Below, one piece after another: positions 3,001-40,904 of a stretch of DNA of 45,991 nt. This DNA comes from a virus. How positions within the stretch are numbered: position 1 is the stretch's first letter; every line of letters starts with the position of its first letter. The notes under the pieces were generated by a model. The model had not been told where the DNA came from. It did not search any database and saw only the letters and a list, made by a program, of their open reading frames with translations. The stretch lies in the IMG/VR virus record IMGVR_UViG_3300021364_000042, positions 1 through 45,991 of that record. One strand, written 5' to 3'. The translations under genes were made by a program, and so were the position numbers.

Positions 3001-4044
3001 ACCCAGGTCTCTCCATCCACCCTGATCGTCTTGATCGCCCTGTTGGGTGTTGTGTGAAGGTTCGCCGAGTCCTGCGGGGATTGCCCGAATAGCAGCCTGA
3101 TACGTTCTGCCATTAGATGCAATAACCTTGCTGAATCTAGGATACGCAACAGCGTTATCGTAAGTGGTGAAAGATGTTCCAGACTTTGCCCCCTGCGTCG
3201 CAGTCGCGATAGGTGAGGTGTTAGCATAGATGAGACGACCGTATCTGTCAACTTGGAAGTTGACAGTGTTAACAGTCTCTTCGCCAGTTGTTGCACTGAT
3301 CAGAGGATCGACCAGTGGGTCCATCGCACTGATGGGGTTATATTTACCCACCACAACTGTGGTATCTGCCAGGTCCAAGAAGGGGTTGGATGCCTGTGCA
3401 TTACCATTCTGGACAATAATACGACCACTACCACCAGTAATAGTCCTAGAAACAATAGATCCTTCTGCCTGACGTGACAAGAAACCAAAGGTGGTCATCC
3501 CTGCGAGAGATGTCAGATCGCTATCCAAAGGTTGTGCGTCAGCAATACCAAAGTCTGACAGAGTTGATGGGTTATCAGCGTTAACAATACGACCACGAGA
3601 GTCAACCGTGATACGAGTATATGTGCCTGTTGCGTCTAGATCTGTGGGGTCATAGTGTGGCAGATTAACCACATAATTCAACTCAGCAGTGATAGTGAGA
3701 TTTGAGGATCCATCAAATGTGCCACTACCAGACATGTCACCACCCAACTGAATCTGACGAGCGTTTGCCAGACGGGTAGCAGTTGCAGCATTACCAATCA
3801 GTGAAGCAGTAATAGCACCCGCTTCAAAGTTACCATCAGCATCCCTCTTGACCAGGGTGTTGGCGGTATTAGATTCTGTCTCCAGCGGTCTCTCATACTT
3901 AAGAGAGTTCCACGCTGTAACACCATCACCGATCTTAATACGCGACGTATCAATCTCGATCCCCAATTCACCTTGGGCGAGGATAGGGTTGACGTTTGCC
4001 CACTGCTGAGCACCGTCACGTCTAAGTTGGATTCTATTTGCCAT
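1..4044 (-). CDS. Tail-fibre-like structural protein, C-terminus cut by the window
   Basis: The reading frame is open from the ATG at 4044 to base 1, giving 1348 codons without a stop; the 3' end lies outside the window. The N-terminus (MANRIQLRRDGAQQWANVNP, then LAQGELGIEIDT and KIGDGVTAWNSL) matches the Mtd-type N-terminal domain found on phage receptor-binding proteins and fibres. Around residues 75-95 it has a tail-fibre-like segment (ATATRLANARQIQLGGDMSG). The rest is beta-rich repeats of the form GGxGIxxxLxVGGxxxI, with a module of about 130 residues present twice (near 600 and 1108). It is probably a host-contact fibre or a similar exposed virion part. It follows a terminator and has its own ATAAATA motif, so it may be a separate transcription unit. 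An AGGA about 12 bases upstream is only a weak ribosome site. The adhesin role is inferred. Confidence 0.88.
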   Translation of the reverse strand, partial: MANRIQLRRDGAQQWANVNPILAQGELGIEIDTSRIKIGDGVTAWNSLKYERPLETESNTANTLVKRDADGNFEAGAITASLIGNAATATRLANARQIQLGGDMSGSGTFDGSSNLTITAELNYVVNLPHYDPTDLDATGTYTRITVDSRGRIVNADNPSTLSDFGIADAQPLDSDLTSLAGMTTFGFLSRQAEGSIVSRTITGGSGRIIVQNGNAQASNPFLDLADTTVVVGKYNPISAMDPLVDPLISATTGEETVNTVNFQVDRYGRLIYANTSPIATATQGAKSGTSFTTYDNAVAYPRFSKVIASNGRTYQAAIRAIPAGLGEPSHNTQQGDQDDQGGWRDLGTDGVEQKGIASFDQEDFDVDANGHVTISENAIENSQMQSRGLLMFTDQNATETFELDRERTTDNAYHGITTINHVNVNNRTGDSVFRVVGYDTAEYPFQPGILDQGNSYPAVAADDPNGNGDANWGSIYTGLVDLNLDATISGNITLDVTKTNQFIKRTSGNVDFHLEVNEAADRNMNITANNADAGGTANINITADNEITISSTDAAYFVNVEDYRFQYNVLSTRDATMVLDPGDDDAATGLVQIRGDLQVDGTTTTVNSVVMTVQDPIITLGGEDTLVADDNKDRGIEFRYYDTQERFGFYGWDEDYADANIWNGTGGYRFLYNATNSSEVYSGTDAAVIAGNLRLTTNTDSTWKTPTTGTLVVTGGAGISANLNVGGTTYIQGNTEIDGTVDIDANFAVRTAGHVDKVTIESATGNTVIEGTLDVQLDTEITDNLTVRADNKEFKIQTDAGVTKFVVDTDNGNSVISGTVNIIGATDIDDTLNVDGNVTFNSNFDLDGQATFHDTIHMDTGSKEFKISNGGAQKFQVSTTNGNTDIEGSLNVGGFNTFERTNNIAVDATTSESDITLATDGAITVAGGVNIEKDVRIGGDLYMDDRIVVKDAGTARTRPSLMNNLDVLYRQVIGGSATHNATFASDTGAQLRVTGGVGIGQDLHIGDDLYIGKLNTNDTVEFSVLGESGFTTIGRVGQGNATDGALVVHGDATFNRELNITGSLTTIGNSNTDVLTVNAVTTYTDDVTIEGNLEVDQNVIINQNLTVHGTTTTVNSTVVTLDDPIVTLGGDTAPGSDDGKDRGVEFRYYDSTARVGFFGWDNSASRYALYHNATNSSEVFNGTRSGLDAGSIKLFDTTNATSPTTGTLIVGGGVGIGLDLYVGDDLNVTDDVTVGGNIAATGAITTQSNFQVQTVFAVTAGSGNTYIGGTLQVNGNATIGNAGSDAHTVNGTVQFNHALTGAARANIRDLKIGTDAANEIGTLSGNLILDSAAGTVNITDNADVDGS
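557..723 (-). repeat. Intragenic repeat, copy 2 (TTTTVNS...GFFGWD)
   Basis: Second copy of a module within the fibre-like gene, around residues 1108-1163. It carries GTTTTVNSTVVTLDDPI, then KDRGVEFRYYD and GFFGWD, and is followed by HNATNSSEVFNG and SPTTGTLIVGGGVGI. It matches the copy at 2083-2247 nearly residue for residue at these anchors. Confidence 0.85.
2083..2247 (-). repeat. Intragenic repeat, copy 1 (TTTTVNS...GFYGWD)
   Basis: First copy of the module, around residues 600-655: GTTTTVNSVVMTVQDPI, then KDRGIEFRYYD and GFYGWD, followed by YNATNSSEVYSG and TPTTGTLVVTGGAGI. The starts of the two copies are about 508 residues apart. Confidence 0.85.
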
Positions 4045-11983: not shown

Positions 11984-13519
11984 TTAGAACTCGATTACGA
12001 TTTTGATGTCTTCGATTTGGTCTCCAGCGCGAGTAATCGCGCCTCTGTTATCTATGTAGATAACTTCTCCACTGTTAGGTTGGACCTCTGGTTTTGCATA
12101 ACCGTTGGTAAACGCCATACCAAGGTCATATTCAGTATTGTTAATGACACGAGTTGACGCACCAGAAACAATGGGGAAGTTGATATCAGGGTCAGCAGAT
12201 GCACCTGATGTGCTACCAACTACAGGGTTACCACCTTCAAACTCAATCAAGTTACCAGTGAATTCGGGGAAAATACCGTCAATTCTATTCTGGTAATACT
12301 TAAGGACCTTTGTGGTGCTATTCCAGGAGATCACACGACCCCTAGCAGTCACTTGCTGACCACCAATTGTGCGGGACTGAGTAATAATTTCGTCAGTCTG
12401 GAAGTTACCAGTGAAAGAAGGTGAGAAGATAACTGCTTTTGTCGCAGACAACGTAAGATCAGCAGTCAATTCTTGTGTGCCATACTTATTGGGGTTGATG
12501 ACAAGACCGATACGACGATAATCGTTATCAGTTGGGAAGTCACCACTACCTTCAGCATAGGTAAACTTGGTGTTGATCATCACTCGGAAACCACCGAGCT
12601 CGGTGGCAGGATCAGCACCATGACCCTTTGTAGGAGGCACGACCACTTCGACGTTACCACCTGTGCCTGTGCCAGCGCCGATACCGTTGACCTCATCAAT
12701 CACCACCTTACCGAAGGTGTAACCGCTACCACCCGAAGTCACTGTTGCCGAAACAATTCGACCACCGTCAACAACCAGAGAAACACGACCACCAACGCCA
12801 TCGCCTTTGATGGGCACGTTTTCATAAGTGCCGTTGTTATAACCAGCACCAGAGGATGCGATAATAACAGTATCGATTTCACCACCGATTGCGTCAGACA
12901 CCACAGCAGTGTCACTCAGCACGGGCATGTATTCGTTGGAGAAGAATTTCAGCACCTGACCCACAGGGATCGTATACATATACTTCCAACGATAACCGTC
13001 AGCAGTGGTAATAATAGAAGTTGAAGTACCCGTAGGCTCAACAGTAGAAGGCTTACCGTTAGGATCACTAGGGGATGTCCCGTTATAGATGCACTTATAG
13101 ACCTGATACGATGAGTTAACAACGTAAAAGTCTGCGTCATAAAGTTTGGTAGCACCAGAAGACGCGGTTTTAGTTGAGCTATAGTCATGACGATACATGT
13201 CATAAACATAACCCAAGCCACCAGTGGTCTGCTCAGGAGGAATCCAGTCGGTGCGTCTAATAACCTGAATAGTATCATTCGCCAGAACTCTCTTCATAGA
13301 GATCATATCGGAATAGTCATCCGCAAACTCTTGGAATGAATCCACAGGGTCTGGGGGAGCATTCTCATTGTCCCATGGTTGAGGGCGACCGATGAAAACA
13401 TACAGTCGATCTCTATCACTACCAGCATCGAGGTCAGACTGAGTAGGGTCAGGACCCTCCAAAGATTTTCTAAACCTCTCGGCAGTAAAGATTCTAAACT
13501 GGTCGGTAAGTAGCGCCAT
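11984..13519 (-). CDS. gp8: Baseplate wedge protein gp8
   Basis: This is a baseplate wedge subunit of the T4 gp8 family. The N-terminal part has the expected order of motifs: FRIFTAERFRKSL, LYVFIGRPQPWDNENAPPDP and RRTDWIPP, followed by YVVNSSYQVYKCIYN and DGYRWKYMYTIP. The C-terminus (SGEVIYIDNRGAITRAGDQI) aligns with the T4 ending SGEMIYMENRPPIIMAMDQT. At 511 residues it is much longer than T4 gp8 (334). Part of the excess is a GGxGY insertion near residues 215-300 (IIASSGAGYNNGTYENVPIK and TVTSGGSGYTFGKVVIDEV), a unit shared with neighbouring structural genes. An ATAAATA motif lies in the 34-base gap before the start. The gp8 identity is secure; the role of the insertion is unknown. Confidence 0.93.
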   Translation of the reverse strand: MALLTDQFRIFTAERFRKSLEGPDPTQSDLDAGSDRDRLYVFIGRPQPWDNENAPPDPVDSFQEFADDYSDMISMKRVLANDTIQVIRRTDWIPPEQTTGGLGYVYDMYRHDYSSTKTASSGATKLYDADFYVVNSSYQVYKCIYNGTSPSDPNGKPSTVEPTGTSTSIITTADGYRWKYMYTIPVGQVLKFFSNEYMPVLSDTAVVSDAIGGEIDTVIIASSGAGYNNGTYENVPIKGDGVGGRVSLVVDGGRIVSATVTSGGSGYTFGKVVIDEVNGIGAGTGTGGNVEVVVPPTKGHGADPATELGGFRVMINTKFTYAEGSGDFPTDNDYRRIGLVINPNKYGTQELTADLTLSATKAVIFSPSFTGNFQTDEIITQSRTIGGQQVTARGRVISWNSTTKVLKYYQNRIDGIFPEFTGNLIEFEGGNPVVGSTSGASADPDINFPIVSGASTRVINNTEYDLGMAFTNGYAKPEVQPNSGEVIYIDNRGAITRAGDQIEDIKIVIEF

Positions 13520-15431: not shown

Positions 15432-16916
15432 TTAGACCACTACAATGTTACCAACCATTCCAGAGTGAATTGTGCATTGATACACATATGTCGTGCCAGC
15501 ACTCAATGTCATTGGCACTGTCCAATACTGCACACCAGTTTGCGATCCTGTTACACCTTGGGTTACTGCAGCTCCACCATTTGTTTGTCTCAATGCAAAT
15601 GGGTGACTAGATCCAGTGAGGTTGTTGAATCTATATGTAAATCCACGATACACATAGATCGTTGGATTGTTACTGGTGTTGTTATATCCACCTCCAGTGA
15701 ATGAATATCCATCAACTGTGGTGCCATCAACTTCAAAACCAACACCAGAAGATACTTGTGTTGTCCATGCCTCTGCCCCACCATCATAAATCAACACCTC
15801 ATTGGCGTTTGCTGAGGGAAGAAGACCTTGAGCAGCAATAGTTACGGTATTTGATGTAACTGATGTAGATACGCCGCCAGTGCCAACAATATTCAATGTT
15901 GATGTTGCCAAAGCAGCAGTAGTGCTACCAGTGTCACCAGCAACAGTCCTGTAAACCTCTTGGACTACGTTAGGGGAGTCGTTTGTGATAGTGAGGTTAT
16001 CGCCGTTAATAGCAGTGCTAATTCCAGTGCCACCAACGAAGTTAATAGTAGTAGAAGTGCTATTCGCAGATTTACTTCCACTGTCCGATCCAATAGTTGC
16101 AAAGATATTTTGGTCTGGATCTCCCAGAGTGCCAGTCATGTTGATGGTGACTGTATCTCCAGTGATCGATGTCTGAATATTTGTGCCGCCAGCAATAGTC
16201 AGGATATCAGTTGCTGCCGATGCTGTAGTCTGACCACTGTCTGCTTGGACAGTTTCAAACAGGTTTTGAGTGGTGCCACCACCGCTACCATCGCCAACTA
16301 TGTCGTTAGCAGGCTCCCACTTGCTATTGGTATTATTCCACTTCAGCACTTGACCATCAGAAGGACCACCGCCAACTGTAAGATCAACGTCATCTAGATC
16401 ACCAACGGATGATCCAGTATCTAGGAGTTGTGTCCATGCACCAGAGTGTGCAAAGTAACCATGTGCTTCATTATGGACATGTGCAAACATGCCATGGTGA
16501 GTAGAAGCATCAGGCAGATCTGCCAGGTCATCAAAGAAGTTGGAATACTTCAGTTTACCATCAGCACCATCAATGTAAGTCAGAGCATCACCAGTGCCTC
16601 CACCCCACAACTTAATCTTACCTGTGCCGTTGGGTTGGATTACTACGTCACCATTTGACTCTGAAGTGATCTGAAATGTCTTGACATTCAGGTTTGCACT
16701 CAGTGAATCAAGGTGTGCTTCCGAAAAAACAGATCCCGTCCATCGCAAGACCTGCCCCGTAGCAGGAGTGCCGATACTGACCTGAAGATTAGTCTCGTTA
16801 CCGAGTGTCGAGTAAATCTCATCAATAACGTTATTGAGTTTGATAGCACCATCTCTGAGACTATCACCCAATCCGTCATTAGCAGATGAGCCGATATTTA
16901 GGTTTTGCTTTGCCAT
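15432..16916 (-). CDS. Baseplate-associated protein: gp9/gp10-like N-terminus and C-terminal cupredoxin-like domain
   Basis: The N-terminus (KQNLNIGSSANDGLGDSLRD, then GAIKLNNVIDEIYSTLGN) matches the start shared by T4 baseplate proteins gp10 and gp9 (IG, DG-GD-L, GG-KIN, EIY), suggesting attachment to the wedge. The middle holds phage-structural repeats (for example SDGQVLKWNNTNSKWEPAND) and three related beta units, each with an F/Y-x-T-V/I-x-x-D-S/T-G motif. The last 90 residues look like a cupredoxin: a strand GFTYRFNNLTGSSHPFALR with His438, then YVYQCTIHSGMVGNIVVV with Cys481, His484 and Met487. The C-x2-H-x2-M spacing is that of amicyanin. This gives a complete set of apparent type-1 copper ligands. 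Metal binding is not proven; the fold may serve only as a structural module. No good ribosome site is visible. Confidence 0.85.
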   Translation of the reverse strand: MAKQNLNIGSSANDGLGDSLRDGAIKLNNVIDEIYSTLGNETNLQVSIGTPATGQVLRWTGSVFSEAHLDSLSANLNVKTFQITSESNGDVVIQPNGTGKIKLWGGGTGDALTYIDGADGKLKYSNFFDDLADLPDASTHHGMFAHVHNEAHGYFAHSGAWTQLLDTGSSVGDLDDVDLTVGGGPSDGQVLKWNNTNSKWEPANDIVGDGSGGGTTQNLFETVQADSGQTTASAATDILTIAGGTNIQTSITGDTVTINMTGTLGDPDQNIFATIGSDSGSKSANSTSTTINFVGGTGISTAINGDNLTITNDSPNVVQEVYRTVAGDTGSTTAALATSTLNIVGTGGVSTSVTSNTVTIAAQGLLPSANANEVLIYDGGAEAWTTQVSSGVGFEVDGTTVDGYSFTGGGYNNTSNNPTIYVYRGFTYRFNNLTGSSHPFALRQTNGGAAVTQGVTGSQTGVQYWTVPMTLSAGTTYVYQCTIHSGMVGNIVVV

Positions 16917-16937: not shown

Positions 16938-16944
16938 TATTTAG
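16938..16944 (-). promoter_or_regulatory. CTAAATA motif overlapping a stop codon
   Basis: CTAAATA on the minus strand contains the TAA stop of the 529-residue gene and ends 21 bases before the next ATG (16916). It resembles a late-promoter core, but its overlap with an obligatory TAA raises the chance of coincidence. Confidence 0.3.
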
Positions 16945-18530
16945 GTGCCATCAAAGGTTTGACTTGTGGAGTCAAACGTGCTACTTGTGCTATCGAAACG
17001 ATTAGCAGTATCTCCACCACCACCAGATCCAGCAACTGTCAAAGTAACAGAGTTGGAATCGAGAGGTGAGTTTTCTGCATTATTTTGTGGGATTGGTCCT
17101 CTAATACGACAGCGGTATTTGTAACCAGTCATATATGCAAGAGCAGTCACTGAATACGAGGTGTCAGTTGCACCTGTAATCGCAGCGAAGGCAAATCCAC
17201 CATCAGTAGATCTGTACCATTGATATGATATGGGTCCGTTTTCTGGGAGGATCTGAGCATTAACTGTAAACGTTGCAGTCTCACCAACATTGACAGTCGC
17301 ATTTTGGGGTTGCAGAGTAAATTGCAACGTAGGAGGTGCGGGAGGAGTCCCTCCATCACCGCCACCCTGATCAGGAATAACAGTCTCGATAGTGAAGGTT
17401 GCGTCTAGATTTTCTCTAGATGTAAATCCCATAATGTATGGGAATGTTGCAACATCTACATCAGATGCATCTGTAGAAAGGAAATATGCAAATGTGCCAT
17501 TTTGGAATTCTGGTGTAACGCAAAATCTTCCATTATGGTAATCAAGTGATCCAGTGCCCTCTACATACTCCCAGTCTTCAATGAGAGCGCCTGCAGGGGG
17601 GTTGTCAGAGTTATCACCATATTCAGGTCTCCCTGGTGCCTCATTATCTTTAATTCCATAAGATGAGGTCATGTTAGTGACACCACTCAAGTTGTCCCAT
17701 GGATCGTTATACCCATAGGGACCATAGATTGGGAATCCATCAAAAGCGATACCTATAATCTTAGAATGTCCGTCAGGATGTCTAATATTATTGCCGTTAT
17801 ACTGAGTGCTTCCGTAGTAGTCGTTATAACCCGCCATTGCTGAATTTGCTTTCCAGCAATCCAAGAAATGGGAATCGTGATAGTGATATTGACCCGATTG
17901 CTCAGGGTGACCACCACAATTATCAGGACCAAAATTTACTATATTTGGATCAAAGTGTGCATTCCAACTAAACCCAAGAGGAGGCTGACCTCCAGCGCCA
18001 GCACTAGGATTGAAAATAGCAACGCCATTAGCAGCGATACCAATCATACCCAGAGGTGTTTCTAAACGAGCATTTCTCTGGTCATAATATTCATATGTGC
18101 CAGTAGTGCCTGATTCTTGAGTCCTCATGATGAGGTCAAGACGGTTATCAGTCGCTAACCAACACTCATCTTCTATTGATGTAAAGGTTGTGCCTTTATA
18201 TAAAAATTTTCTCTTAATGCCATCACTAAACACAAAAAGAATGTGGTCACCAGGACGAATTTCATTATCTGATCCAAACAAACCATTGTCATTTACTGAC
18301 AAGTCAATGGATCTGATGAAACCATCTTGAATCCATGCATCACTATCAAAAGTGCGACTGATACCAAACGTGCCGCCACGATAGAAGAAGTCATGATCAA
18401 AATCCTGCTCAGTTACTGAGTTAGGATTATTGTCATTTGGGAACGTGCCATACCCCACGGGGTCGGGCAGTCCATCTGCCGCCACCGTGAGGATGTTTGT
18501 GGCTTGGTCATAACTGGCGGTTGCAGTCAT
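16941..18530 (-). CDS. YHYH-domain and Ig-like virion protein (529 aa)
   Basis: Residues about 160-370 form a YHYH domain: the literal YHYH (GQYHYHDSHFLDCW) near residue 216, then GHSKIIGIAFDGFPIYGPYG near 255-275, and DYHNGRFCVTPEFQNGTFAY toward the end. Residues about 400-500 form an Ig-like domain (TVNVGETATFTVNA, ISYQWYRSTDGG, GYKYRCRI). The C-terminus is a short FDSTSxTFD repeat. YHYH domains are known in bacterial surface proteins and phage structural proteins, but their biochemical role is unclear. Both modules recur in the giant gene just upstream, suggesting module exchange between neighbours. An exposed virion protein that contacts the host or decorates the baseplate is likely. No catalytic role is claimed. 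Confidence 0.87.
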   Translation of the reverse strand: MTATASYDQATNILTVAADGLPDPVGYGTFPNDNNPNSVTEQDFDHDFFYRGGTFGISRTFDSDAWIQDGFIRSIDLSVNDNGLFGSDNEIRPGDHILFVFSDGIKRKFLYKGTTFTSIEDECWLATDNRLDLIMRTQESGTTGTYEYYDQRNARLETPLGMIGIAANGVAIFNPSAGAGGQPPLGFSWNAHFDPNIVNFGPDNCGGHPEQSGQYHYHDSHFLDCWKANSAMAGYNDYYGSTQYNGNNIRHPDGHSKIIGIAFDGFPIYGPYGYNDPWDNLSGVTNMTSSYGIKDNEAPGRPEYGDNSDNPPAGALIEDWEYVEGTGSLDYHNGRFCVTPEFQNGTFAYFLSTDASDVDVATFPYIMGFTSRENLDATFTIETVIPDQGGGDGGTPPAPPTLQFTLQPQNATVNVGETATFTVNAQILPENGPISYQWYRSTDGGFAFAAITGATDTSYSVTALAYMTGYKYRCRIRGPIPQNNAENSPLDSNSVTLTVAGSGGGGDTANRFDSTSSTFDSTSQTFDGT

Positions 18531-18550: not shown

Positions 18551-21500
18551 TTGTCATCGAAGATCTGGACGGGACTGAAGTTACTGATTAAAGTAGCACC
18601 AGTCTGGACGCTCAGGATAGCAGACAGTGAGTAGACAGGTGTTGCTCCCGTTGCTGTGATAGCAACGCGATATTCATCACCATCATCAGACTGGACAGTA
18701 TTGCCAGTATTGTATGTTGCCTGGTTAGCACCAATGATGTTATTCCAGGTTTGAGTGCCATACTCCTTCTTCTGCCACTGATAGTTGAGGGTCTCGTTAT
18801 TGGAAACGGTAGCAACCACAGTGAAGGATGCTGTAGTGCCCTGGTTAACGGTCACGTTGACAGGATCCTGATTGATTGCGATTGCGCCAGGCGTGACAGT
18901 TGTGCCACCATTATATTCGCTACCTTCTCCCGCGAGGATATCGAAACCGCCGTTGACAGGTGTGCCTTCGGGTGGTGTGAAGTCATCGGGGACCTCAGTA
19001 TCAACCGCAACTACGGCTGCGGTATAATCAACACCTGCTTGCTTAACATCAATTCGAGCAACACCCATTTGTGCCCTAATACGAGCGTCAAATCCAGTAG
19101 AGGAAATAACGTCCACATTTGGTTGTGAGGTATAACCATCACCAGGCGAGGTGAGAGAAGCACCTGTGATTTCACCAGAGGTGATATTTGCAAGGGCTTG
19201 TGCATTACGACCCTTGACAGATCCTGTGTATTCAAATGTGATCAGCGAGTTGGAAGACTCAATCAGAGCAACCTCACGATTAAATTCTTCACCTTCGATA
19301 AACAGTTTGTCTCCAGATTCAATTGGGGGCACAACAGTTGCAGCGATCACGTCAGCGTCACTACCAATGTAGGAGAATCCAACAAAGGTGCTTCCTGCGC
19401 GAGGCACTTCAGCAAAGATGATTCTAGAACCAACGATCTCGTATGCGACACCAGGCTCTTGAATAATACCGTTGAGCGAAACAATAATGTTGTTTTCTGG
19501 TCTAATCACGTTAGAGGAAACACCCTCAGTCAATGTCAGTGAGTAGAAGAGACCGTCACGCTTCAGGTTGAAGCTTGATCTCAAGGAGTCAAACTCGAAA
19601 CTAATATCATCCAGTTGACGGAGTTTACCAACGTAGTAACCGATAAATTCGGATCCAATTTCAGGAGCCTCAGAGAAACTGATCTTATCTGAGAATGCAA
19701 CATAGGAGTTGTTACCACCAGGAGGTTGCAGCACACCATTGACCCAGACGAGCAGGTGACCTGCGGGATCGGGGAAGTATGCTTCACCATTAGCAATTGT
19801 GAGATCAAACTGTGTTTGCTCTCCATCAAATCCACGGAAGTAACGCTCAACACGACCCTCCAGAGTGCGTGCTTCAGAAACAGCACCGCCCCATCCATAG
19901 TCGGACTTGATGGTCATGTTATCGACAAACTCACCAACAACATTTTCAATCCAGATTGTCGCTGTAATTCCTTGTTGCTCGATTGAAGCCACACGCCCGT
20001 AGGAAGAATATCCAGTGTCCGTATATGAGTTAACTCCTGCATAAATTGTTGGGAAGTTAGATCCAATATCAATCTTACCAATATTATTGGTAGAATTTGT
20101 CAATTCACTAATGTCGGCACCCGTGCCAACAGGAATCAGATTAGCAATAAACAGACGATGGATACCATAGTTGGGATCCTGAGGATCTGCGTCCAGTCCG
20201 TTGATGTATTTGGTTACAGTTGCACGGAATCCAGGATTTTTCTCTGTTGTGCCTTGCAGTAAGGATACTTCATCACCAACACGGAAGGTATCGGAAATAC
20301 CTGTGTCGATAATTGCAGCACCCAATTCCAACTGATAAACATTAGTGCCATGGACATACTGATTAAGTTGCAGTTGTGTGCCAGAAATGCCCTTGACTTC
20401 CAAGATGTAGTCAGTGACGTTACCATAGATAACATCGCCAGCATCCCAGGAGTTTTGAATAGTCTCAACATCAATCGTGATACGACCGCCAGTGTTACCT
20501 GTAAGAGATCCAGACTTATTGATGTAGTTAGACATATATGCTTCTGCTGTGGAGTTGGTGCCAAAGAACCACTCACCCGTAGCAAAATCACCCAGAGTTA
20601 CATCAAGCAGGAATCTATCTTCAATAGCAGCGCCGATAGTTGCAGTCGCACCACTGTCAACACCTTCAATAACATCACCAGCGTTAATTGTGCCAGCAAC
20701 AGTCATGAGTTTTACAAATGAGTCCCCATCTTCATTTGCTGGAGTTGTTTGCAGCACATAACCATTGTTTGCAGTAGCACCTTGGACAACTACTTGCTCA
20801 CCATTAGTAAATTGATCGTATACACCCAGGACAGATGAAACATTTGTCAGAGGATAATACTTATAAACCTTGAAGATTTCTGCTTCATTGTTTTGGACTC
20901 TAGAAACTTCAGCAGTTGCCTCTGAAGTAGATCCAACCAGCACATCTGCAGGATTGAAACCACCTTGGATTGGTGTATCCGAGGGATCTTCTGGGAAAAC
21001 GGTGGTTGCTCTATTGATGCCACTACGACGGACTACAGCAAAGAGTTGAGCACCAGTATTCAATGTATCTGCTTCTAAGAGTTTGAAGCGACCATCGTGG
21101 ATATAGTGAGCACCAATTTCAAACCATGTAGGTGTAGCTGTAATGCAATAGAAGTAAGTTTGACCGTCCAGACCAGCAACAGAAGTTTCTGAAGCAGGAA
21201 TATACTGTAGAATATCACCACGACGGAATTGGTTTCCACGGTTAATTCTGATGCGATACTCAGCACGATCGAAACCAACATCAACGACGGGTGTCAGAGA
21301 CACCAGAGAAGGATCGGTATTGTAATCAACACCCATCTCATAGGTGGTGCTCAGATTTTGGAGATCGCTAGATGCAATAAAGGTTACACTTGCTTCTGTT
21401 GGGAATTCGGATCTTTCCAGAGCAAACTCTAGTGGGTTGAGAGAAGAGTCGATAATAAACTCTGCTGCCTCTTGGAACCAAGGGAATCTTTCACCATCAC

Positions 21501-24500
21501 CAACATATGTGGTATATGCATCCCAACCTGGATCTTCCTCAATTTGATACATTGCACTCTTGATGAATTCTCTGCAGCGAGTGAGAGCAAAGATCAAGTG
21601 CGATCTTATTACATCTTGGAATGCAATGAAGTTACCTTCACCATCAAACCATGTTTGTGCAAGGCGGAATGCACCAGCGTTACCACCAGTGATCATGTCA
21701 TATCTGACCGCTTTCAGCACATCATAGGCAAAAGAAATATCAACATCGGTTGTGCCGTAATTAGCAGTAGTTGCATCAAGGACTCTGGTGGCAATAGCAT
21801 CACTATTGAAGAGAATGCGATTAGCAACAATCTTCTCATTGTGCGTACCACCACCAAGAGTGTTGATCATGATTTCAAACAGAGTATCAATAGCAGATTG
21901 CTCATCATGGCAAGTGCCAAACTGATACTCGGTATTGTTGTTGTCTGCAAAGGTTTTAGTGACAGTATCTAAGTAATTGACATTATTAACTGCAGCCTCA
22001 GTAATAGTATCAATGATGATGCCCATCAAAGTGTCAATAGAAGAAGCGACAGTTGCACATGCTTGATTCCAAGAGGGACCTGCAGCATTATCATAAAGGA
22101 TTGTAAGATCTCTATTTGTTGAATCGGGGGTATACTTAACAGGCCAGATCATTGGCAACTCATAAGCATTGGTTTGACCAACGTTTGCTGGATTCTGAAT
22201 ACCATCAGTAACAATCTGCATCAGACTATCAATTCTAGCCTCAATATCTGCAGTTTCCAATCCAGTGTAGTCTGGATCAACCAAGCGAGCACGATAGTAA
22301 TCAAGATCACTCAGAGTATTCGCTCCGTAAACCTGCGTCCAATTATCGTTAAATCCGTTAGGTTCACCCGATACAGTGTTACCTGCAGAGGCACCCCAAC
22401 CACCTGTGTAGTTGGCAGAAGCGATCCAAGTGAAGGACCAGCGTCCATCCAGACCACCAAGACCAGTAAACTGATTTCCAGGAGTTGTTGCTTCACCAAC
22501 AATATCGCCATCAATAAAGAGTCTTACACGACCAGCACCAGCAGCAGCAGTGCCACCAATACGAATTTCCCAGGCCAACTCGTGTTGATTACCATCGAAG
22601 TATTGTGCAAGATCAGTAATGGGAATATCGAGCAGAGCAAGACCTGTATCTGTATTAGTTGCACCACCAGCAACTGCAATGTTGCTACCAGCACGAAGTC
22701 TCAGATAGGTGCCATTATCTCGGATACCAAGGAATGCGCCATAGGGCTCATCTGCTCTAACCGTGCCACCTGCTTCCCACAAGAGTGCGTCTTGAGGAGT
22801 TGTTGTATTAGGCAATTCGACAACTGCACGGAAAACAGCATCATCTGTAGGATCAACACCCGTTGCAGAATTAACATTATTTTCAATGTTAGTAGTGCCA
22901 GGAGTAAAGGATCTGGTAACAAGATTCTGGAATGATGTGATGTCAATACCATTGTCAAGATCAGACAAACGCAACTGATTGGTTGGTTTCTTAGTTGCAT
23001 CAAAGAATCTCTGAGCAACACCATAACCAGCATTATTAGTAATTACCTGATCCTTCATTGCACGTTTTGCAAGATCTCGTGCCCTTTCAAGAATCCAAAC
23101 AGTTTCGGTTGCTTGAGAGGTAATATGCTCAAGATTGCCGCTGTAATTCACATAGAATTCGGCACAATAGTGCATCCAGTTATCACCACCATACTTCAGG
23201 TTGAAGATCAATGCTCTCAGGATATCTGTGACATCATGGATGCAGTTGATCGATCCACCAGGGATAACCAGTGAGGGATATTGTTGCTGACCATCATAAA
23301 CTGCCTGCTCAGCAATATAACGAATGTTGCCATCAATTGCATCTCCAGTATCTCTATAGTCAATGGTGTATGGGTTTGATTCATAAGTTTCAACTGGGGT
23401 GGTGTCGGGATCATTACCTTCAATATAATCTCTACCAAAACCATTACGCATTGTTACTGTAAGAAGATCTCTTACAATCTTGTAGACAGTTACAGATGCT
23501 TCCCACTCATTTTCAATATGTCTTAGTGAATTGTTTTCTGGCTCAATGTAGAGTTCTGCAGCATCCCATGTCCTTTCATTGCAATTATGCAGCATGTCGT
23601 GCAGCAAGACATCAATGATATCTTTGACATCATCCTCGCAATTAACAGACCCGCCAGGAATCTCAAATGTGGCATACTTGGAGAGGTCATTCATGATAGC
23701 GACTGCTTCCTTAGCAATCAGATCTTTATTTGCCTTGATTGATGTGGCAGCATCATAGAAGTGATTCCAATCTTGTGCGGTATTCTGAGGCCATGCTTTA
23801 GTATCAATGGTAATAGTATCATCGCGATATGCTGCTCTACTGGTATAGAGAGGCTCATAGTAATCACCATTCTGCACCCAAGCAGGCACGCCCAACTCAG
23901 CAATTGCAGTATTTGGAGAAATCAGCATATTATTTGCTGCTTTCTGACACAAGAATTTGGTAAATTCAAATGCATCTAGCATTGGATTCAACTCATGCTC
24001 AACATGCAGGATATTATCCTGAGAGTCAAGATAGAAGTCGATTACATTCTTAACGTTATATGTGCCTCCTGTAACAAGGTCTGCAATTACACCAGGAATA
24101 ATATATTGCTTGATGTCTCTTTCGCAGACAGACTCACCACCACCAGGGATGTTAAGGAAGTTGGTTTCTGTGCCGCCAAGATCAATGGTGTATTTGTTGG
24201 TAATATAACCAACGACTTCTTCAGCAATGTAATCGCGGTTTTTCCAGATGAGGACACCAGAATCCTTAAATCCTTGACCTGTAGGTGCAATGACTTGAAG
24301 AAGATCATCAATAAGACCACGGATCTCATCCAGCACACCCTGTGTGGCAGGAGATGCAAAATTGTTAGGAATCCTCAGTCTCTCTGTATAAACACCAGTA
24401 AGATCTGTGCTGGTAGTAGTCAATACATCGTTAATGATGTCGCCAACTTTATCCCAGGTGTAGAGAGTTTGCAGCACCTCATTACCAATGTAATTCAACT

Positions 24501-27500
24501 CGCCGCCCTTAGTCAGGTATGTGCGAGCGGTGTAGAGAGTATGGTAGTTACCACCTTCTCTAAGGTCTTTAATGATTGCACCAATAATATAGTCCTTAGT
24601 ATCACGCAAACAGTAATTAGTGCCACCATAAGAATTATTAGCAGGATCATCTCCAGGCATAATGAAGTCTGGGAATTCTGCCTTCATCAAACCGACTGCT
24701 TCTTCAGCAATCCATGCATCATTCAATTCAATGATGTTTGCACATTCTCTTTGCTCAAATCTACCAAGATCAACATCTTTGATAATTAGAGACTTGGTTT
24801 CATAATCAATAACCTTAGTGGTTGCTGCAGAAGTCCTAGATCCTGTAAATGTAGCATATGTTTCAGTAGTGGACAGGATAAAGGGTGCTTCACCATCAAG
24901 ACCCAAGACAATGTTGGCATTGGTATAGTCAACTTGTGTAGGTGGAGTAAATGCCTCAGTATGCTCTGCTTCAAGGTTATTGATGTAGAAATTGTCTACG
25001 AATCCATCAAAACCATTAGTGCCGTTAAAATCAGCACCAATAGTAACCTTCGTATACAGATAATCATTAGTATCAGTATAGTTGCTACCAACTTGGACAC
25101 CATCAACATACAACTGCAGGACGTTTGTGCCCCTAACCAGTGAAATATGATGCCAAGTAGTTGCACTTAAAGTGCCACCAGAGATCAGTTGGGTAGTCCC
25201 GTTGTAAACTCTCAGAGTGGTTCCATCCAACACCAGACGCAATCCAACATTTGCATCGAGACGACGCAAATCAACTAAGTTTTGAGTGCCACTTACTGCA
25301 TTTGGATACCACCAACCTTCAATAGTGAAATCATTAGCAGTGCCAAACGCATAATCATAAGAGTCTGCAGCAACAAGATATCCAGCAGAAGGAATCTTGA
25401 TTGACTTGGTGCCAGACAATTCTGCTTTCTTGGTAATAACACTCTGACTGCAATTGCCCTGGTTTGCCAGGGTAGAGTTAGTCAACAACTCTCCATATTG
25501 CAGAGTGCCTGTGATGGGACCAGCAAAGATCCACTTCAGACCAGAATTAACACCTTCCGCTGCAAATATCGCTCCAGAAGTAACGCCTTTAATTTGATTG
25601 CCTGTGACAAACAGACCAGAAGACTTATCCTGATAACCAATCTTAATTGTACGGACAGTCTCACCATCAACAAAGGTGCCATCGCTGATAGATGCGAGAG
25701 CATTCACGTTGTTGAGATTACCTGCAGTAATTGCAGTAGTTGCAATATCTGTCAGGGTTGCAATGTAAGACTGGACATCAGCACAGTTGTTGATATCTTG
25801 GTTATTGCCATTTGCATAGTTTGCATCATACAGTTGACCAGGAGCAGTGCCACCATAGGTCACAGGATCGTTGAGAATTGCCAGATCCTTGTCATACAGC
25901 AGGTTGTTGATTGCCTGATATGAAAGATCACGGACTTTCTCAAATGCAGTTACAGAAGGACCTTCTTCACCGAGGAGACCATCACTGATGGGATTACCTG
26001 ACGCATCAAAGTAGAATCTAGTGAATTCAACAATGTTGTAGTTGCCACCCTGAGAAACATCGTTTGCCAGAGCATCAACGAAGTAACCAATGTCACGACG
26101 ACACTTCTCTTCGTTGGGGGAGTATGTGCCGACAGACTCATCGGGCAACTCGGAAAGAGTGCCGCTAGTCATTGCCTCATCAATAATCTCCCACAGAGTT
26201 GTAATAGCATCTTGGACATCAGAGCATCCTGCAGGATCAGTGTTGTCGGTGTTAGTGCCAGCAGTAGGATAATCGTCATTAGGTGACTGGTCGGCAGTGA
26301 CAGTCAGATCTTGATATGCATCGTATGAGGTGCCTGCATCGGGACCATTGACCTGAGTGTAAGATCCGCTCAGATTGTTGGTGATTGCAAGAAGCATGTA
26401 ATCCTTGACTTTCTCGTATGCAAAACGAGTTTCTGCTGCTTGCAGATTCACATAGATCAGAGCACCATTCTCATCAAAATAGTATGAGATAAACTTACGG
26501 GTGTATCTGTTACCACCACGATAAGTATCAATTGCCAGAGCATCCATGAAGTGACCCAGGTCACGCTTACACTTAGCAGGATCGGGGACCACCAAAGTAG
26601 GATACTGGGTGATCATATCATCATATGCCTTAGCAGCGATATAGTCCTTATTAAGGACAACGAAACGATATGCGTCAGAATATCTGCTCCATTCGTTAGT
26701 TTGGATATCACCAGGGAAGTAGAAGTCGGGATGCTCAACAGCAATCTGTGCTTCAGCAAAATCAATCAACTCTTGCTTGTTTTCTCTGATGCGAGTTGCA
26801 GCATCATAGAATCTGTTTCCAGCAGTGCCGTGGTATGCAGAAGTTGGGTTACCGTAGTAAACTCTTCTATTTTGAATCTTATCACCTTCAGAGAAGTTGC
26901 CACCTGTCAGATCAGTGTATGTTACTTCAGTGCTTCTAACTTCTTCAAAATCGAGGAAGTCTGCATTGATACGCTGGTCATCATTATACAATTCTGTAGG
27001 AGTGATAGATGATTGAGAAATATTATCCAGAATAATGTTGGGATTGGTAATGCTAACCAAACGCTCAAACAGCAGACCATAGAATGTGGATCCAGGGTTG
27101 ATCTCCAACTCTGTCACAACATCTCCAGTCACAGGATCAACATATGGTGAGATGAATGTAATCTGACCAGCGATCTTAGAAGATGCTGAGTAGATAAACT
27201 CATTCAGTTTCAGGTCAAAAATACCAGTTTCATACTTAGCGGTGCCAGAAGTCTTACTGACTACCAGACGATCAGTGATCACACCATCGACAAGGTTAGT
27301 CTCTTCAATAATTGCAGTATCGCCTTCCATATTGGTGATAGATTCACCAAATTCAAAGATGGTATCGGTATTGATCAAATCAACAGACTGGACCAATGCA
27401 GAGAAGAGAGTTCCACGAGTAATTTCTTCATTCAATTCAAATGTGCCACCAGAGACGTTAATAACGTCAAGATGGTTTGTGCCAGAATCAATAACAGTTG

Positions 27501-33500: not shown

Positions 33501-36500
33501 AGAGTTTGTTGGTGTTATCGGTAATAGGACGTGAGTTGACAATAATAACATCCTGTTGACGCAACTCGTGCTCAACATCGGTAGTGATAACACCGTAAGG
33601 ACGATCACCAATCATCTCCTTGGTGTAACCAAGGATAGTCTGACCCTTAACAGATTCGATAATTGCAGATGCACCAAATCCACCAGTGCCTTCGTTGTCG
33701 AAGAAAACAGTATCATTAACCTGATAAGACTCACCAGGGTTTTCAATCACGAAACCATCAATCTGAGCATTTTCAAACTGAGTGGTTGTTTCAACTTCGA
33801 TGTCAACTCTAGATTCTTCAGAAACCTGAGGGAAGTAATCATAAATCTGCAGAGTTGCCTCTTCAGACATCTCAAGGATTTCTTGCTGCTCCAAAGCATC
33901 AATCAGACCATCATTGTTGCTATCTTGGATCTCAAAGATGATGGGATATCCTTCGATCTCAGTCGTCAGGACATCTGCTTCTTGGTTGGGTTGACGATCA
34001 ATGTCAATATCAACGTCAACATAAGGATCTCTATATCTTACAACGTCAGAAGGAATGTTTTCCTGTGTTGCTGTCTGGCTGAAATTCCATTCATCTGGAA
34101 GTGAATTAAACTGAGGTCCAACAATGTATGGGAATTCTGCAATACCAGCATCTGATGCATCAATAGTAATGAAGTATGCATAGGTGCCATCTGGGAATTC
34201 TGGTGTCTTACAGAATCGTCCGTTATAATTGTCCAGGTCACCAGATTGGAAATCATAGGTATAATCGTCAACAAATGATCCTGCAGGGTATTCATTGATG
34301 GATGGACCATCTACACGAGCAGGGTTTGGATTGGTCGCTTCATCATAAACAACGTTATCTTTCAGTTTATAGGAAGTACGCAGTCTTCTAATGCCGCTGT
34401 TTTGGTCAGTGGGATCGATATAACCATATGGACCATAAATGGGGTTACCATCAAACGCCCAACCGATGATTGGGGAGTGCTTGTAGTTTGACTCAAGCTC
34501 TTGGAATTGTTGAGTTACAGGATTAAGGAATACGTTATCACCAACAACATAACGCAACTCTTTAGGATCGCTAAGGTGAGCAAACTCACCACCAAACTGG
34601 TTGTTATATCCAGTAAAGACATATCCTCTAGAGAAGTCATACTTATTGACAAGATCATACTGTAGGTTTCTATTCCACTTGAAGACATCGGGGGTGAATG
34701 TTGCCAATTCACCAATTGATTGGAGTCTGACTGTGGTATTGCCTTGGGTATAACCAACACCTCTGTTGGTGATGGTCACAGACAGCACACGACCCTTATC
34801 TTCACCAGTTGTGCCAATAGTTGCAATACCAATAGCACCAAAACCATCACCATTGATGATTACGTTAGGTGCAGTAGTATAACCACTACCTGAGTTAATA
34901 ATAGCGATAGACACAATACGCCCATTGATCACAATGGGTTGTGCCAGAGCACCTTCACCAGAGTTGACTCTAACTTCTGGGTCTGAAGTATATCCAGATC
35001 CAAAGTTGGTGATGTTAACACCAGAGATAGGACCACGGACGTTTGCAATTGCAGTTGCACCACTACCGCCACCACCAGTAATAGCAACGCTAGGTTGTGA
35101 AGTATATCCACTACCTTGCTGCTCAACCAGAATTCTAGTAACACGACCACCAGTGATAACTGCTTGTGCAGTTGCACCACTACCACCGCCACCAACAATA
35201 GAAACCAGAGGGGACTCGGTATATCCACTACCCTGATTAGTAACAGTAAACGATGTCAGACTACCATTAACAACAACTTCACCAGCAGCACCTGTGCCAC
35301 CACCACCTGTGATTTCAAGGTTTGGTTTATTACCAGCATCATAATTTACACCAGGATTTGTTACTTCGACTTTAGTCAAAGGTCCAAACTGGACATATTC
35401 TGAAGACTTATATGACCAAATTGATACCCCATTGATCCAAGATCCAATGGGTGTATTTTCCTTAACGTCTTTACGCTCAGAGATAGTCTGGACGTTTCTG
35501 GGGAATCTCAGCAATTTACGCTGGTTGCCAGGAATTAGTGCTGATCCAATGAAAGGACCAATTCTGTAGTTGGGCAGACCAGATGCTGCCACATACACAT
35601 AATCATCATTAAAGAAGGAGTTTTGGATGTTGGTTGTAAACTCACTTACAACTTTATTGATAGATGCTTGATCAGACTTACCTCTATTAAGGTCAACCGA
35701 CAACAGAATATTACCCTGAGGGATAATATCAGTAGGTGTATTCAGTTGATATGAGAAAGTAAGAGGGTCAATACGAGATGTGACTGTAAAGGTGCCGTTA
35801 TATACAACAGGGTTTGCACCATAAATTGTCACCTGATCGGAAACCAACAAACCATGAGGATTATCACAATAAACAGTTGCGGTCTGATTATTAACACCAC
35901 CAGACTCAATGCGATCAACTTGAATTAGTTTTTTGACATTATACAACCAAGAAGACAGTTTTTCATCGATTGCTGTCGATCCAAGGTTAGCAACTTTCAG
36001 TTTGTCACCTTGAATATAATAAGATCCAGTGTCATTCAGGACGGTAGTGCCTGCCTCAGCAATACCAAGGACACGCAGTTTACATTCTTGTGCTGTGCCT
36101 CTATTGACATATACAAAAATGTCAGATTGGACTACAGTGCCAGGATCCCAGTCCTCAACAACACCATTTCTGCTTCTGGTGCATTCAATAAACTGGTTGA
36201 GTGATTTTTCTTTATATTGGACCTCTTCTTCGTCGTTAATCCGAATTGTGCCGTTTCTAGCAGGCCAACCAATGGTGGAGTCAACAGTAATGATTTGACC
36301 ATCAGTAGTCAGAGGCTCTACAAGAGTAGTTTTGTAAGGAATCTTAAATTCACCAGTCAGAGTTTCCTCTGAGATTGCCAATTCGTAAATTGTGTCAGTA
36401 CCTTCAATAATAGTAATGACATTTTCAATTAGAGCATTTGCTGCCTTGATATTCAGGTCAACAGGATCGGCATACTGATTCAACTCAGAGTCGATCAGGT

Positions 36501-38780: not shown

Positions 38781-40904
38781 TCAGAAACAACCGTCTGGCA
38801 CTGGATACTCGAAAGAATCCATTGGGTAATCAATGATATTTATACCCCCTGTAGGACCGAAGTTGTATCCCGAGAAGTTGTTGGGATCGAAGGAGGGGAC
38901 AGGGATTGTGTTAATCGTAAAGTCAATTGGATTGACCGTTGGATTAAAGATTGTGGGGTCAACGCCAGGTGGAATGTCAATAGATCCACTATAAGGCACA
39001 ACCTGAATGGGTAGTCTTTCTGTATTATCGGGAGTATCAGAAATTGCCAGAGGTCCAACACAGACTTTACCTGTGCCATAATCAACAGTGCCCACTGTTG
39101 GGTTGAGAATCAATTCTGTCTCATCACGCTTAGTGACTAGCATCAGATTTCCCTTGCCATCATCTCTAATGTTGACAGGGACCAAGACTTCGGTGGAAAT
39201 GTTGGAATTAAAGCCAGGGGTAATGATTTGAGCACCAGTTGATTCGTCAAGTGCAAGGTTTACCAAGTCTTCGGTATAACCAGTTGCATAGAAGGTGCCA
39301 GACTTGACCACAGAGAATGAAGGGTCGCATTTTGTGCCACCGACGTTACCATCGGGATCTGTACCGTCTCCACCATTTCCTTTTCCATCAGAATTACCTG
39401 AATAATCCGATGGATCATAAATTCTGTTACCAAAGTCAAGACATTGAGTAAATACTTGTCCCCAAGTAAATTGATCCAGATTTTGACCCAAAGTAATCTG
39501 AGTTACGCTACCAGAAATGGATGTATCGCTGTTATCAATCACAGCACCAAATTTAGATCCGTCAATACGGTTATTAAAGCGGTTTGTTTGGCCTGCTTTG
39601 TTAAATTGGTCAATTGACTGCAACACTTTGGTGCCAAGTTGCGCTCCAGTGTTGGAAGTTGCGTTTCCGTCGTAGTAAACGTAAGATTTGGGAATAATGT
39701 AGTAAGAAGTGGGATCAACGATGACAGGCTCGATTGATGCAACTGCAAACTTCTTCAAATCATTCTTAATTTTCGCTTTTGTGCTCGCATTGAGTTTTGT
39801 GCCCGTCTTAGGGCGAATAGCGATAAAGACTTTACCGTAAATTGGAGGAGAAAGTCTCTCACCACCATATGCGGTGACTGCAGCCGCCTGTGGATATACC
39901 TCAGAGACGATGTGCTCATAATCATTCTCTGTCACAGCACGGTTTTGCGTTGCATACGCTCTAGGTGCTCTAAATTTGACGCTCAGACCCGTTTCGCGTT
40001 CTTCACCTTGCTGTGCTGCTTCCATGACAGTCAGTTTCATGCCTGAAGTAGGCAGCACGCGCCCATCAGAGTCAACAATGTTGCCAATGAAGCTAAATGA
40101 CTTGGATCCGTTTGCTGCTACGCCGTCAGTTTGCACATATTCCAGTCTAATGTACTCACCATCGATCAATTTGCGCCCCAAAACGCCATCACCGAAGATT
40201 AAACGGTATCTAAGGTCGTCAGTTTCCTCCAAATAGTAAATTCTGGAGTTTTCCGTTAACGCAGTAGCGTTATTTACCAAACTATAAGAGTCAGTTTCTG
40301 ACGATTGTGCATTTGGAGAGATATTAACGAAAAGAAGATCAGTGTCTACGTTTTCTGCGGGGATCAGAAACTCTTGTTCTTTCGTATAATCGACTGTATA
40401 GTTGTATGAGAGCAGATTTCCTTGATAAATGATGACATTATCAAAGACTGCCAGTCCAGTTGCGGAATCTACGGAGACTGTGATGTCTCTTGTGAGTGTA
40501 AATGCAAAAGAATCGAGTGCATTCTCCGCAACAAACACATCTCCCTTCTTCAAAGTTGCAAATTCTGGAAATGTGATGCCATTCAACGATATTTGCGTCT
40601 GTGCTTCGATCTTGACACACGCTTTAGGCGCTTTAATTGACCTAGGAGTGTAATTTAACTGCTTTGCAATGCGGACAATGTTGTCTCTGACGGTTGCAGT
40701 CTCAAGAAATGACTCATTCAGCGCCATATTAGCGTTGAATGCTGTATAATATGTGTTATAAGCGAGGATATCGATCAGGTACGATGCGCTACTTCCCTCA
40801 AAATCGTAATCCGAAAACTCTTTCCGAGTCCTGAGGTAAGATCTTATGGATTCTTTGATCTCAAAGAAGTCCAGAGACGTAAGTTGTGAGGGAATTGCTG
40901 ACAT
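38781..40904 (-). CDS. gp6: Baseplate wedge protein gp6
   Basis: A T4 gp6-family wedge subunit, 707 residues against 660 in T4. The N-terminal region is characteristic (LTSLDFFEIKESIRSYLRTR, ASYLIDILAYNTYYTAFNAN, MALNESFLETATVRDNIVRI). The mid-part carries YYLEETDDLRYRLIFGDGVLG and RAPRAYATQNRAVTENDYEH, followed by KVFIAIRPKTGTKLNASTKA, as in phage baseplate gpJ/gp6-type proteins. Near residues 497-525 there is a glycine/aspartate-rich linker (SGNSDGKGNGGDGTDPDGNV), and the C-terminal extension after it (about 180 residues) is proline- and asparagine-rich. The start is one base after the gp25 stop, with GAAGG as ribosome site. In T4, gp6 dimers with gp7 form the core of the wedge. Confidence 0.95.
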   Translation of the reverse strand: MSAIPSQLTSLDFFEIKESIRSYLRTRKEFSDYDFEGSSASYLIDILAYNTYYTAFNANMALNESFLETATVRDNIVRIAKQLNYTPRSIKAPKACVKIEAQTQISLNGITFPEFATLKKGDVFVAENALDSFAFTLTRDITVSVDSATGLAVFDNVIIYQGNLLSYNYTVDYTKEQEFLIPAENVDTDLLFVNISPNAQSSETDSYSLVNNATALTENSRIYYLEETDDLRYRLIFGDGVLGRKLIDGEYIRLEYVQTDGVAANGSKSFSFIGNIVDSDGRVLPTSGMKLTVMEAAQQGEERETGLSVKFRAPRAYATQNRAVTENDYEHIVSEVYPQAAAVTAYGGERLSPPIYGKVFIAIRPKTGTKLNASTKAKIKNDLKKFAVASIEPVIVDPTSYYIIPKSYVYYDGNATSNTGAQLGTKVLQSIDQFNKAGQTNRFNNRIDGSKFGAVIDNSDTSISGSVTQITLGQNLDQFTWGQVFTQCLDFGNRIYDPSDYSGNSDGKGNGGDGTDPDGNVGGTKCDPSFSVVKSGTFYATGYTEDLVNLALDESTGAQIITPGFNSNISTEVLVPVNIRDDGKGNLMLVTKRDETELILNPTVGTVDYGTGKVCVGPLAISDTPDNTERLPIQVVPYSGSIDIPPGVDPTIFNPTVNPIDFTINTIPVPSFDPNNFSGYNFGPTGGINIIDYPMDSFEYPVPDGCF

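Follow-up and report, generated by a model that had tools for sequence, protein, structure and literature searches.

Tandem phycobiliprotein-family domains in a giant cyanophage baseplate protein suggest that the virus particle may carry a light-absorbing pigment

The repeat units of a giant baseplate protein encoded in the viral record IMGVR_UViG_3300021364_000042 are, with near certainty, phycobiliprotein-family domains (bilin-binding globins, PF00502) arranged in tandem. The stretch analysed (45,991 nucleotides; the whole of it is referred to below as the window) comes from a T4-like cyanophage, and the units sit in a giant open reading frame (ORF) in the slot of the baseplate gene gp7, where their cores together occupy about positions 21547-26676. 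What appears to be new is the presence of tandem phycobiliprotein-like units in baseplate and tail-fibre proteins; the phycobiliprotein-like family of bilin-binding globins is itself known. No published report of a phycobiliprotein domain in a phage tail was found in the open-licence PMC literature. The near-invariant pigment-attachment cysteine suggests, as read from the sequences, that the virus particle may carry a light-absorbing pigment on its tail.

An original prediction, made from the letters of the window alone, had described the repeats as an uncharacterised helical family that could not be matched to a named domain. Both statements had to be given up, as the units match phycobiliproteins by profile and by fold, a profile match to a characterised domain being an outcome that the prediction itself had named as refuting it. 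The window protein scored 29.6 bits against the Pfam family PF00502 (Phycobilisome protein; gathering cut-off, 22.2 bits). This cut-off was also passed by lone units of S-CREM1 (25.0 bits, profile positions 32-138 of 155) and S-WAM2 (28.1 bits); the lone units of the window all remained below it (best, 14.9 bits), and 8 of 38 lone short units matched at E≤1, mostly below threshold. NCBIfam gave no match to the units. Searching PDB with single sequences by phmmer reached only E=0.3, all three matches being allophycocyanins or phycobilisome core proteins, so that a profile was needed. Using a profile of 38 diverse phage units as the query against 177,635 distinct PDB sequences, we obtained 127 matches at E≤10, the best 60 of which were all phycobiliproteins (phycocyanin, phycoerythrin and allophycocyanin chains; best E=1.2e-5). 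In these alignments, the Cys-x2-Asp of the units falls on Cys84-x-x-Asp87 of the phycobiliproteins ('getkCkrDik' on 'NQAKCARDIG'), and the match runs on to the GG turn. In the reverse search, a cyanobacterial CpcA/CpcB profile was run against 3046 phage ORFs, and 18 of the 20 domains scoring above the best reversed-sequence decoy fell inside units. Comparison of units with phycobiliproteins by hhalign yielded 95.8% probability (E=7e-9), and reversed profiles less than 1%; the hhalign results with unit-2-only and beta-only profiles were weak because the cyanobacterial set is shallow. Finally, when the window and its closest relatives (L005-L012) were left out of the profile and the database size was set to 100000, all seven units of the window were still recovered, with E between 8e-22 and 7e-27 for six of them and 2e-6 for the seventh, which excludes chance.

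The fold was evaluated on AlphaFold2 models of a single unit (predicted local distance difference test, pLDDT, 88) and of the tandem of units 1 and 2 (370 amino acids; pLDDT 81; predicted template modelling score, pTM, 0.84). For the single-unit model, all 50 matches listed by Foldseek were phycobiliproteins or their derivatives, with a best E of only 0.08, and structural alignment of this model gave Z 12.7 (2.5 Å over 110 residues). The tool itself warns that helical bundles can reach a Z of approximately 13. The Foldseek result for the 370-residue tandem was noisy, with receptors and transporters at a probability of approximately 0.1 and phycobiliproteins alone at 0.66-0.97; the single-unit model and the VIA alignment settled the assignment. 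In the VIA alignment, the modelled first domain of the tandem (residues 13-216) lay on beta subunits (chain residues 7-177) with Z 17.1 and 1.9 Å over 139 residues. The aligned region extends from the helix ahead of unit 1 through the Cys-headed helix after unit 1, so covering whole beta subunits; Z was 15-17 over the whole chain, and only phycobiliprotein-family entries appeared among the 50 listed. Among predicted viral structures, the good matches were confined to tail or structural proteins of cyanophages, uncultured phages or entries without a name, and none of them was labelled phycobiliprotein.

Within the window, the predicted six units with a C-x2-D motif and a seventh unit lacking it were all recovered (Table 1). 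Two further predicted anchors held in part: D-x3-GG[NT] is exact in five units, but the remaining two read D-MLH-NCN and N-LKY-GGD, and the helix end A-x-x-N is a tendency (AITN, AINN, AANN) rather than a rule (VLTT, TMRN, AMKD). A second motif, NC[AS]DV at the head of a helix, had escaped the original prediction; it occurs at residues 4184 and 4331, with looser forms at 5573 and 5622. The proposal that the units are far diverged and yet under selection for one fold was borne out by a mean pairwise identity of 29% in a set of 70 units (less than 60% identical to one another), by nearly invariant anchors and by a confident helical model.

In this 70-unit set, Asp at Cys+3 (Asp87) is present in 68 units, and the attachment Cys in 65 of the 67 units that have a residue there (six of seven in the window). 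Leaving aside two terminal positions that many units lack, conservation within the domain is highest at this Asp and next highest at the Cys. The phycobiliprotein Cys is the residue to which the bilin is bound, and the Asp three residues further on contacts the pyrrole nitrogens of the bilin. The Cys/Asp pair, to which the original prediction had assigned a possible metal or disulfide role, is thus meaningful in that it coincides with the bilin-attachment Cys and the pyrrole-contact Asp, but a metal or disulfide function is unlikely. A further Cys motif at the start of helix H, [GDN]C[AS][DN]V, follows 31 of the 70 units (for instance PGDCADV in S-CREM1, compared with PGDCSAL in CpcB). In the VIA alignment, Cys4184 (GCSDVQ) lies 19 residues ahead of the aligned end, which is the spacing also found from beta-Cys158 to 177 in phycoerythrin and from beta-Cys153 to 172 in phycocyanin; hhalign aligned the helix-H Cys residues with each other, at very low probability. 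Cys4184 of the model is likely, although not proven, to be the equivalent of beta-Cys153/158.

Within the searches made, the units are restricted to cyanophages. A two-unit query retrieved 361 phage records, of which 360 are named Synechococcus phage, Prochlorococcus phage or cyanophage and one is a marine virus. Profile searches, even at E≤1, detected no units in T4, HTVC008M (Pelagibacter host, same virus family), P-SSM2 or P-SSP7. P-HM2 has 6 units, S-PM2 has 11, and a 199-kb relative of the window (G001) has seven. The units are located in the gp7-slot baseplate wedge protein in the window and in the short tail fibre gene in other cyanophages. The S-PM2 record (NC_006820) puts 16 tRNA genes inside the short tail fiber coding sequence (CDS; L090:13605-18432); ARAGORN placed tRNAs only upstream of it (L090:8431-10351), and the annotated coordinates therefore look stale.

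The units are accompanied by genes for bilin metabolism. A CpeT-type bilin lyase was found in 22 of 25 unit-bearing records (13 of 16 among those not chosen via CpeT) and bilin reductases in seven of the 25, and the S-type lyase CpeS (PF09367) in none of them. No CpeT was found in T4, HTVC008M, P-SSM2 or P-SSP7, the four phages without units. Of the viral contigs selected through CpeT, 17 extend for more than 2 kb downstream of cpeT, and in every one of these a unit-bearing ORF begins 0.2-1.8 kb beyond cpeT; cpeT lies at the same distance upstream of the unit-bearing ORF in eight of ten isolates examined. As many contigs are closely related, this adjacency does not represent as many independent events. 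P-HM1 and P-HM2 combine units with a bilin reductase and CpeT, P-HM1 having a heme oxygenase as well, and G001 encodes a heme oxygenase, two bilin reductases and CpeT. Gasper et al. (2017) reportedly observed tight binding of phycoerythrobilin (PEB) by P-HM1 CpeT but no transfer to the beta subunit of the host, as would be expected if CpeT had another acceptor. The CpeT of P-HM2 matches 5hi8 at 6e-79, and that of S-CAM1 matches CpcT (4o4o) at 1e-17. In cyanobacteria, the T-type lyase CpcT acts on beta-Cys153, and CpeT is believed to have this function for phycoerythrin (PMC10452541); beta-Cys153 is also the site to which the helix-H Cys of the units points.

Individual genomes show further arrangements of these genes. 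In Synechococcus phage Sf-FP1 (L086:9001-11276), the unit-bearing tail gene is directly preceded by three consecutive genes, for CpeT, a 2-oxoglutarate (2OG) oxygenase and a PcyA-type bilin reductase, the PcyA gene lying between cpeT and the tail gene. Short CpeT-like genes occur beside the gp5 hub/lysozyme gene in S-RIM2 (L191:2346-2804) and S-WAM1 (L192:3010-3489), inside the tail module and apart from other photosynthesis genes. For S-WAM1, the match to CpeT extends ahead of the annotated start of a hypothetical CDS, so that this start is probably misannotated.

Given an invariant bilin Cys and Asp, a bilin-binding fold, phages of bilin-making hosts and linkage to a bilin lyase, the simplest account is that the units are bilin-carrying domains of the virion, and we consider it on balance probable that they bear a covalently bound bilin there. 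During assembly, the Cys residues of the units would receive linear tetrapyrroles, PEB or phycocyanobilin (PCB), from host or phage enzymes, either by self-attachment or through phage CpeT, and the virion would thereby become pigmented on its baseplate or tail fibres. The absence of CpeS is no obstacle to this, because relatives of the phycobiliproteins known as bilin biosynthesis-associated globins (BBAGs) need no lyase to bind bilin where they have the CXRD motif (PMC10151467).

Several observations weigh against bound pigment. Sequence similarity to phycobiliproteins is strong mainly over helices B and E; Arg86 (Cys+2) is found in only 43 of the 70 units (61%) and in four of the six Cys-bearing units of the window; and most units have a shortened form of the loop before the Cys, which in phycobiliproteins bears propionate contacts. 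The adjacency of cpeT and the unit gene could be one ancestral arrangement, and in the window-type phages S-WAM1 and G001 cpeT lies away from the unit-bearing gene. No bilin gene was found in the window record, which is a 46-kb fragment. P-SSM2 (NC_006883) has neither units nor CpeT despite pebS and ho1, with which it is annotated in the literature, so bilin synthesis can serve something else and bilin reductases are not strictly tied to units.

Part of this evidence would also suit a phycobiliprotein fold that was captured from a host or a relative and now serves the tail only as a pigment-free structural or oligomerisation domain, its Cys and Asp being kept for packing or capping of helix E. 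The evidence for the fold stands irrespective of a chromophore, the units take turns with laminin G (LamG) and further tail modules in the manner of ordinary fibre domains, and unit 7 is kept without its Cys in orthologues. However, a purely structural role would explain neither why the units are linked to a bilin lyase nor why they are restricted to cyanophages, and among positions covered in nearly all units the Cys is second only to Asp+3 in conservation, in a protein where Cys is otherwise rare (28 of 6742 residues, 0.42%, versus 1.5% in the units). We regard it as a real but lesser possibility. Quite improbable, in our judgement, is that the units mimic host phycobiliproteins, for example by binding or titrating host lyases or linkers after infection, with CpeT acting on host phycobiliproteins only and located near the tail gene because an insertion hotspot for auxiliary metabolic genes lies there. 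Genes for 2OG-oxygenase, DenV, glutaredoxin and tRNAs do share the same interval, and phage bilin genes and CpeT have been reviewed as aids to host light harvesting (PMC10452541, PMC2984593). Yet the units belong to a baseplate or tail protein, presumably made late, Prochlorococcus hosts are without phycobilisomes although P-HM1 and P-HM2 carry units, a bilin reductase and CpeT, and the CpeT-like genes of S-RIM2 and S-WAM1 lie within the tail module. The idea that the co-conserved Cys and Asp of a so far uncharacterised type of helical repeat form a metal site or a disulfide was rejected as very improbable because no partner residue is conserved: each domain has one near-universal Cys and no second conserved Cys or His, the helix-H Cys motif follows fewer than half of the units, and C-x2-D falls exactly on the phycobiliprotein CxRD in profile and fold. 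Chance resemblance between helical bundles without common ancestry is hardly credible since, for all the modest Foldseek E and the Z that bundles can reach, independent profiles agree in both directions, reversed controls fail and the 50 entries listed for whole-chain alignment of the tandem domain are of the phycobiliprotein family only.

A pigment on the virion might serve as a light sensor or as a light-gated switch for tail deployment. Light-dependent adsorption of cyanophages has been known since 1979; S-PM2, with its 11 units, reportedly requires light to adsorb, and P-SSM2, which has none, can adsorb in darkness. The units are a physical candidate for what lies behind this dependence. 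P-HM2 shows no adsorption in the dark, and P-SSP7 infects and produces virus in the dark (PMC7112961), a contrast that tracks the units, with six in P-HM2 and none in P-SSP7. As the correlation concerns very few phages, one of them (P-SSP7) a podovirus, we rate light-gated adsorption via virion bilins as rather unlikely; equally tentative is the broader idea of cyanophage particles as pigmented photoreceptors, whose baseplate and short tail fibres would carry bilins made or attached by the phage enzymes HO1, PebS/PcyA and CpeT and in which absorbed light would gate adsorption or tail deployment. If light gating does occur, it would explain why some cyanophages adsorb only in the light. Photoprotection of the virion or quenching of reactive oxygen species is a plausible alternative use of the pigment.

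The standard comparative study called the role of cyanophage pcyA and pebS 'a mystery' and that of cpeT 'unresolved', since Prochlorococcus hosts lack intact phycobilisomes (PMC3037559), a puzzle repeated in a review (PMC2984593). An acceptor of phycobiliprotein type within the virion, with a genetic link to the lyase, would be a concrete answer to it. The domain is present, under other names, in at least 361 sequenced phage records, cyanophages of this kind are among the most abundant viruses of the sea, and a pigment, if present, would be a new kind of virion component.

Table 1. Repeat units, Cys codons and baseplate genes of the window (aa, amino acid positions in the giant protein).
Feature	Position in window	Strand	Basis or remark
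Truncated N-terminal half-unit ahead of unit 1, aa 3986-4022	26710..26820	(-)	E=0.04; helices H2-11, H13-27 in tandem model
Unit 1, aa 4034-4133, CKRD at aa 4069	26377..26676	(-)	profile and fold
Cys4069 codon, putative bilin-attachment Cys (phycobiliprotein Cys84 equivalent)	26569..26571	(-)	profile alignment to PDB phycobiliproteins
Cys4184 codon, helix H start (GCSDVQ), candidate beta-Cys153/158 equivalent	26224..26226	(-)	19 residues before aligned C-terminus
Unit 2, aa 4186-4291, CRRD at aa 4225	25903..26220	(-)	profile
Cys4331 codon, helix-H Cys after unit 2 (NCADVQ)	25783..25785	(-)	invariant in 25 orthologues
Laminin_G_3 jellyroll between units 2 and 3, aa 4479-4600	24976..25341	(-)	E=1.3e-15
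Unit 3, aa 4678-4786, CLRD at aa 4722; Pfam PF00502 match, best stretch about aa 4677-4729	24418..24744	(-)	
Unit 4, aa 4838-4949, CERD at aa 4884	23929..24264	(-)	profile
Unit 5, aa 5008-5111, CEDD at aa 5046	23443..23754	(-)	profile
Unit 6, aa 5142-5241, CIHD at aa 5178	23053..23352	(-)	profile
Unit 7, aa 5650-5743, degenerate, without attachment Cys	21547..21828	(-)	profile
Giant baseplate (gp7-slot) virion protein with units, 6742 aa	18547..38775	(-)	phrog_701 virion structural; between gp6 and gp9/gp8 homologues
gp6 baseplate wedge homologue, directly upstream of giant ORF	38781..40904	(-)	three Gp6 Pfam domains
gp9-type baseplate/tail-fibre connector	15432..16916	(-)	context gene
gp8 baseplate wedge homologue	11984..13519	(-)	context gene

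The giant ORF is flanked upstream by the gp6 homologue and downstream by a YHYH/immunoglobulin (Ig) protein and the gp9 and gp8 homologues, and thus occupies the gp7 slot of a T4-like baseplate wedge cluster. A strong match to PHROG 701 (virion structural protein) spans most of it; the match to PF23786 (Baseplate_wedge) reached E=0.032 and 14.1 bits, under the 27-bit cut-off. Relatives are annotated as 'gp7', 'baseplate wedge initiator', 'virion structural protein' or 'short tail fiber'. For one cluster annotated in this way (T4-GC969), detection in purified S-SM1 virions has been reported (Sullivan et al., PMC3037559). Because the GC assignments in the records are partly inconsistent, the virion location of the giant protein is annotated rather than proven.

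Other modules of the giant protein are shared more widely. The LamG jellyroll is common to further viral contigs without detected units (L035-L051 of the first viral scan), which were left out of the unit set as they match this inter-unit domain only. A YHYH domain (PF14240) lies at residues 1424-1540 (window 34156-34506; E=4e-28) and recurs in the next ORF downstream (window 16941-18530; E=1e-35, with a weak Ig match), and is a second shared module of the baseplate. The C-terminus (window 18600-18900) matches the Hoc-like/Ig head-decoration families phrog_613 and phrog_4069, which is unusual in the gp7 slot. Beyond the baseplate cluster, four ORFs of 132-237 amino acids on the (+) strand (window 151-3057) had no Pfam match, and the two tested against PHROG had none there.

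Among known systems, the closest in gene order is T4 gp7, the baseplate wedge initiator of approximately 1000 amino acids: the giant ORF holds its slot in the order gp25-like, gp6, giant ORF, gp9, gp8, but T4 has no units. Phage CpeT, a T-type bilin lyase (5hi8) like CpcT (4o4o), is a candidate loader encoded by a partner gene of the units and not the domain itself. The BBAGs (Rockwell, Martin and Lagarias 2023, PMC10151467), likened here by description, are, as the units appear to be, phycobiliprotein relatives outside light harvesting, with CXRD in BBAG-1 and BBAG-3, and are encoded with bilin-making enzymes; unlike the units, they are small free-standing bacterial proteins and not virion components. 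With the phycobiliproteins proper the units have in common the globin-like fold of helices Y/A-B-E-F-G-H, the Cys-x-[R]-D bilin motif on helix E and the GG[TND] turn after it, and some units carry a Cys that may correspond to the second-bilin Cys of beta subunits, at the start of helix H. Phycobiliproteins, however, are subunits of 160-180 amino acids, whereas the units, at about 15-20% identity to them and with a shorter loop before the Cys and an incompletely conserved Arg86, are tandem domains inside giant phage tail proteins.

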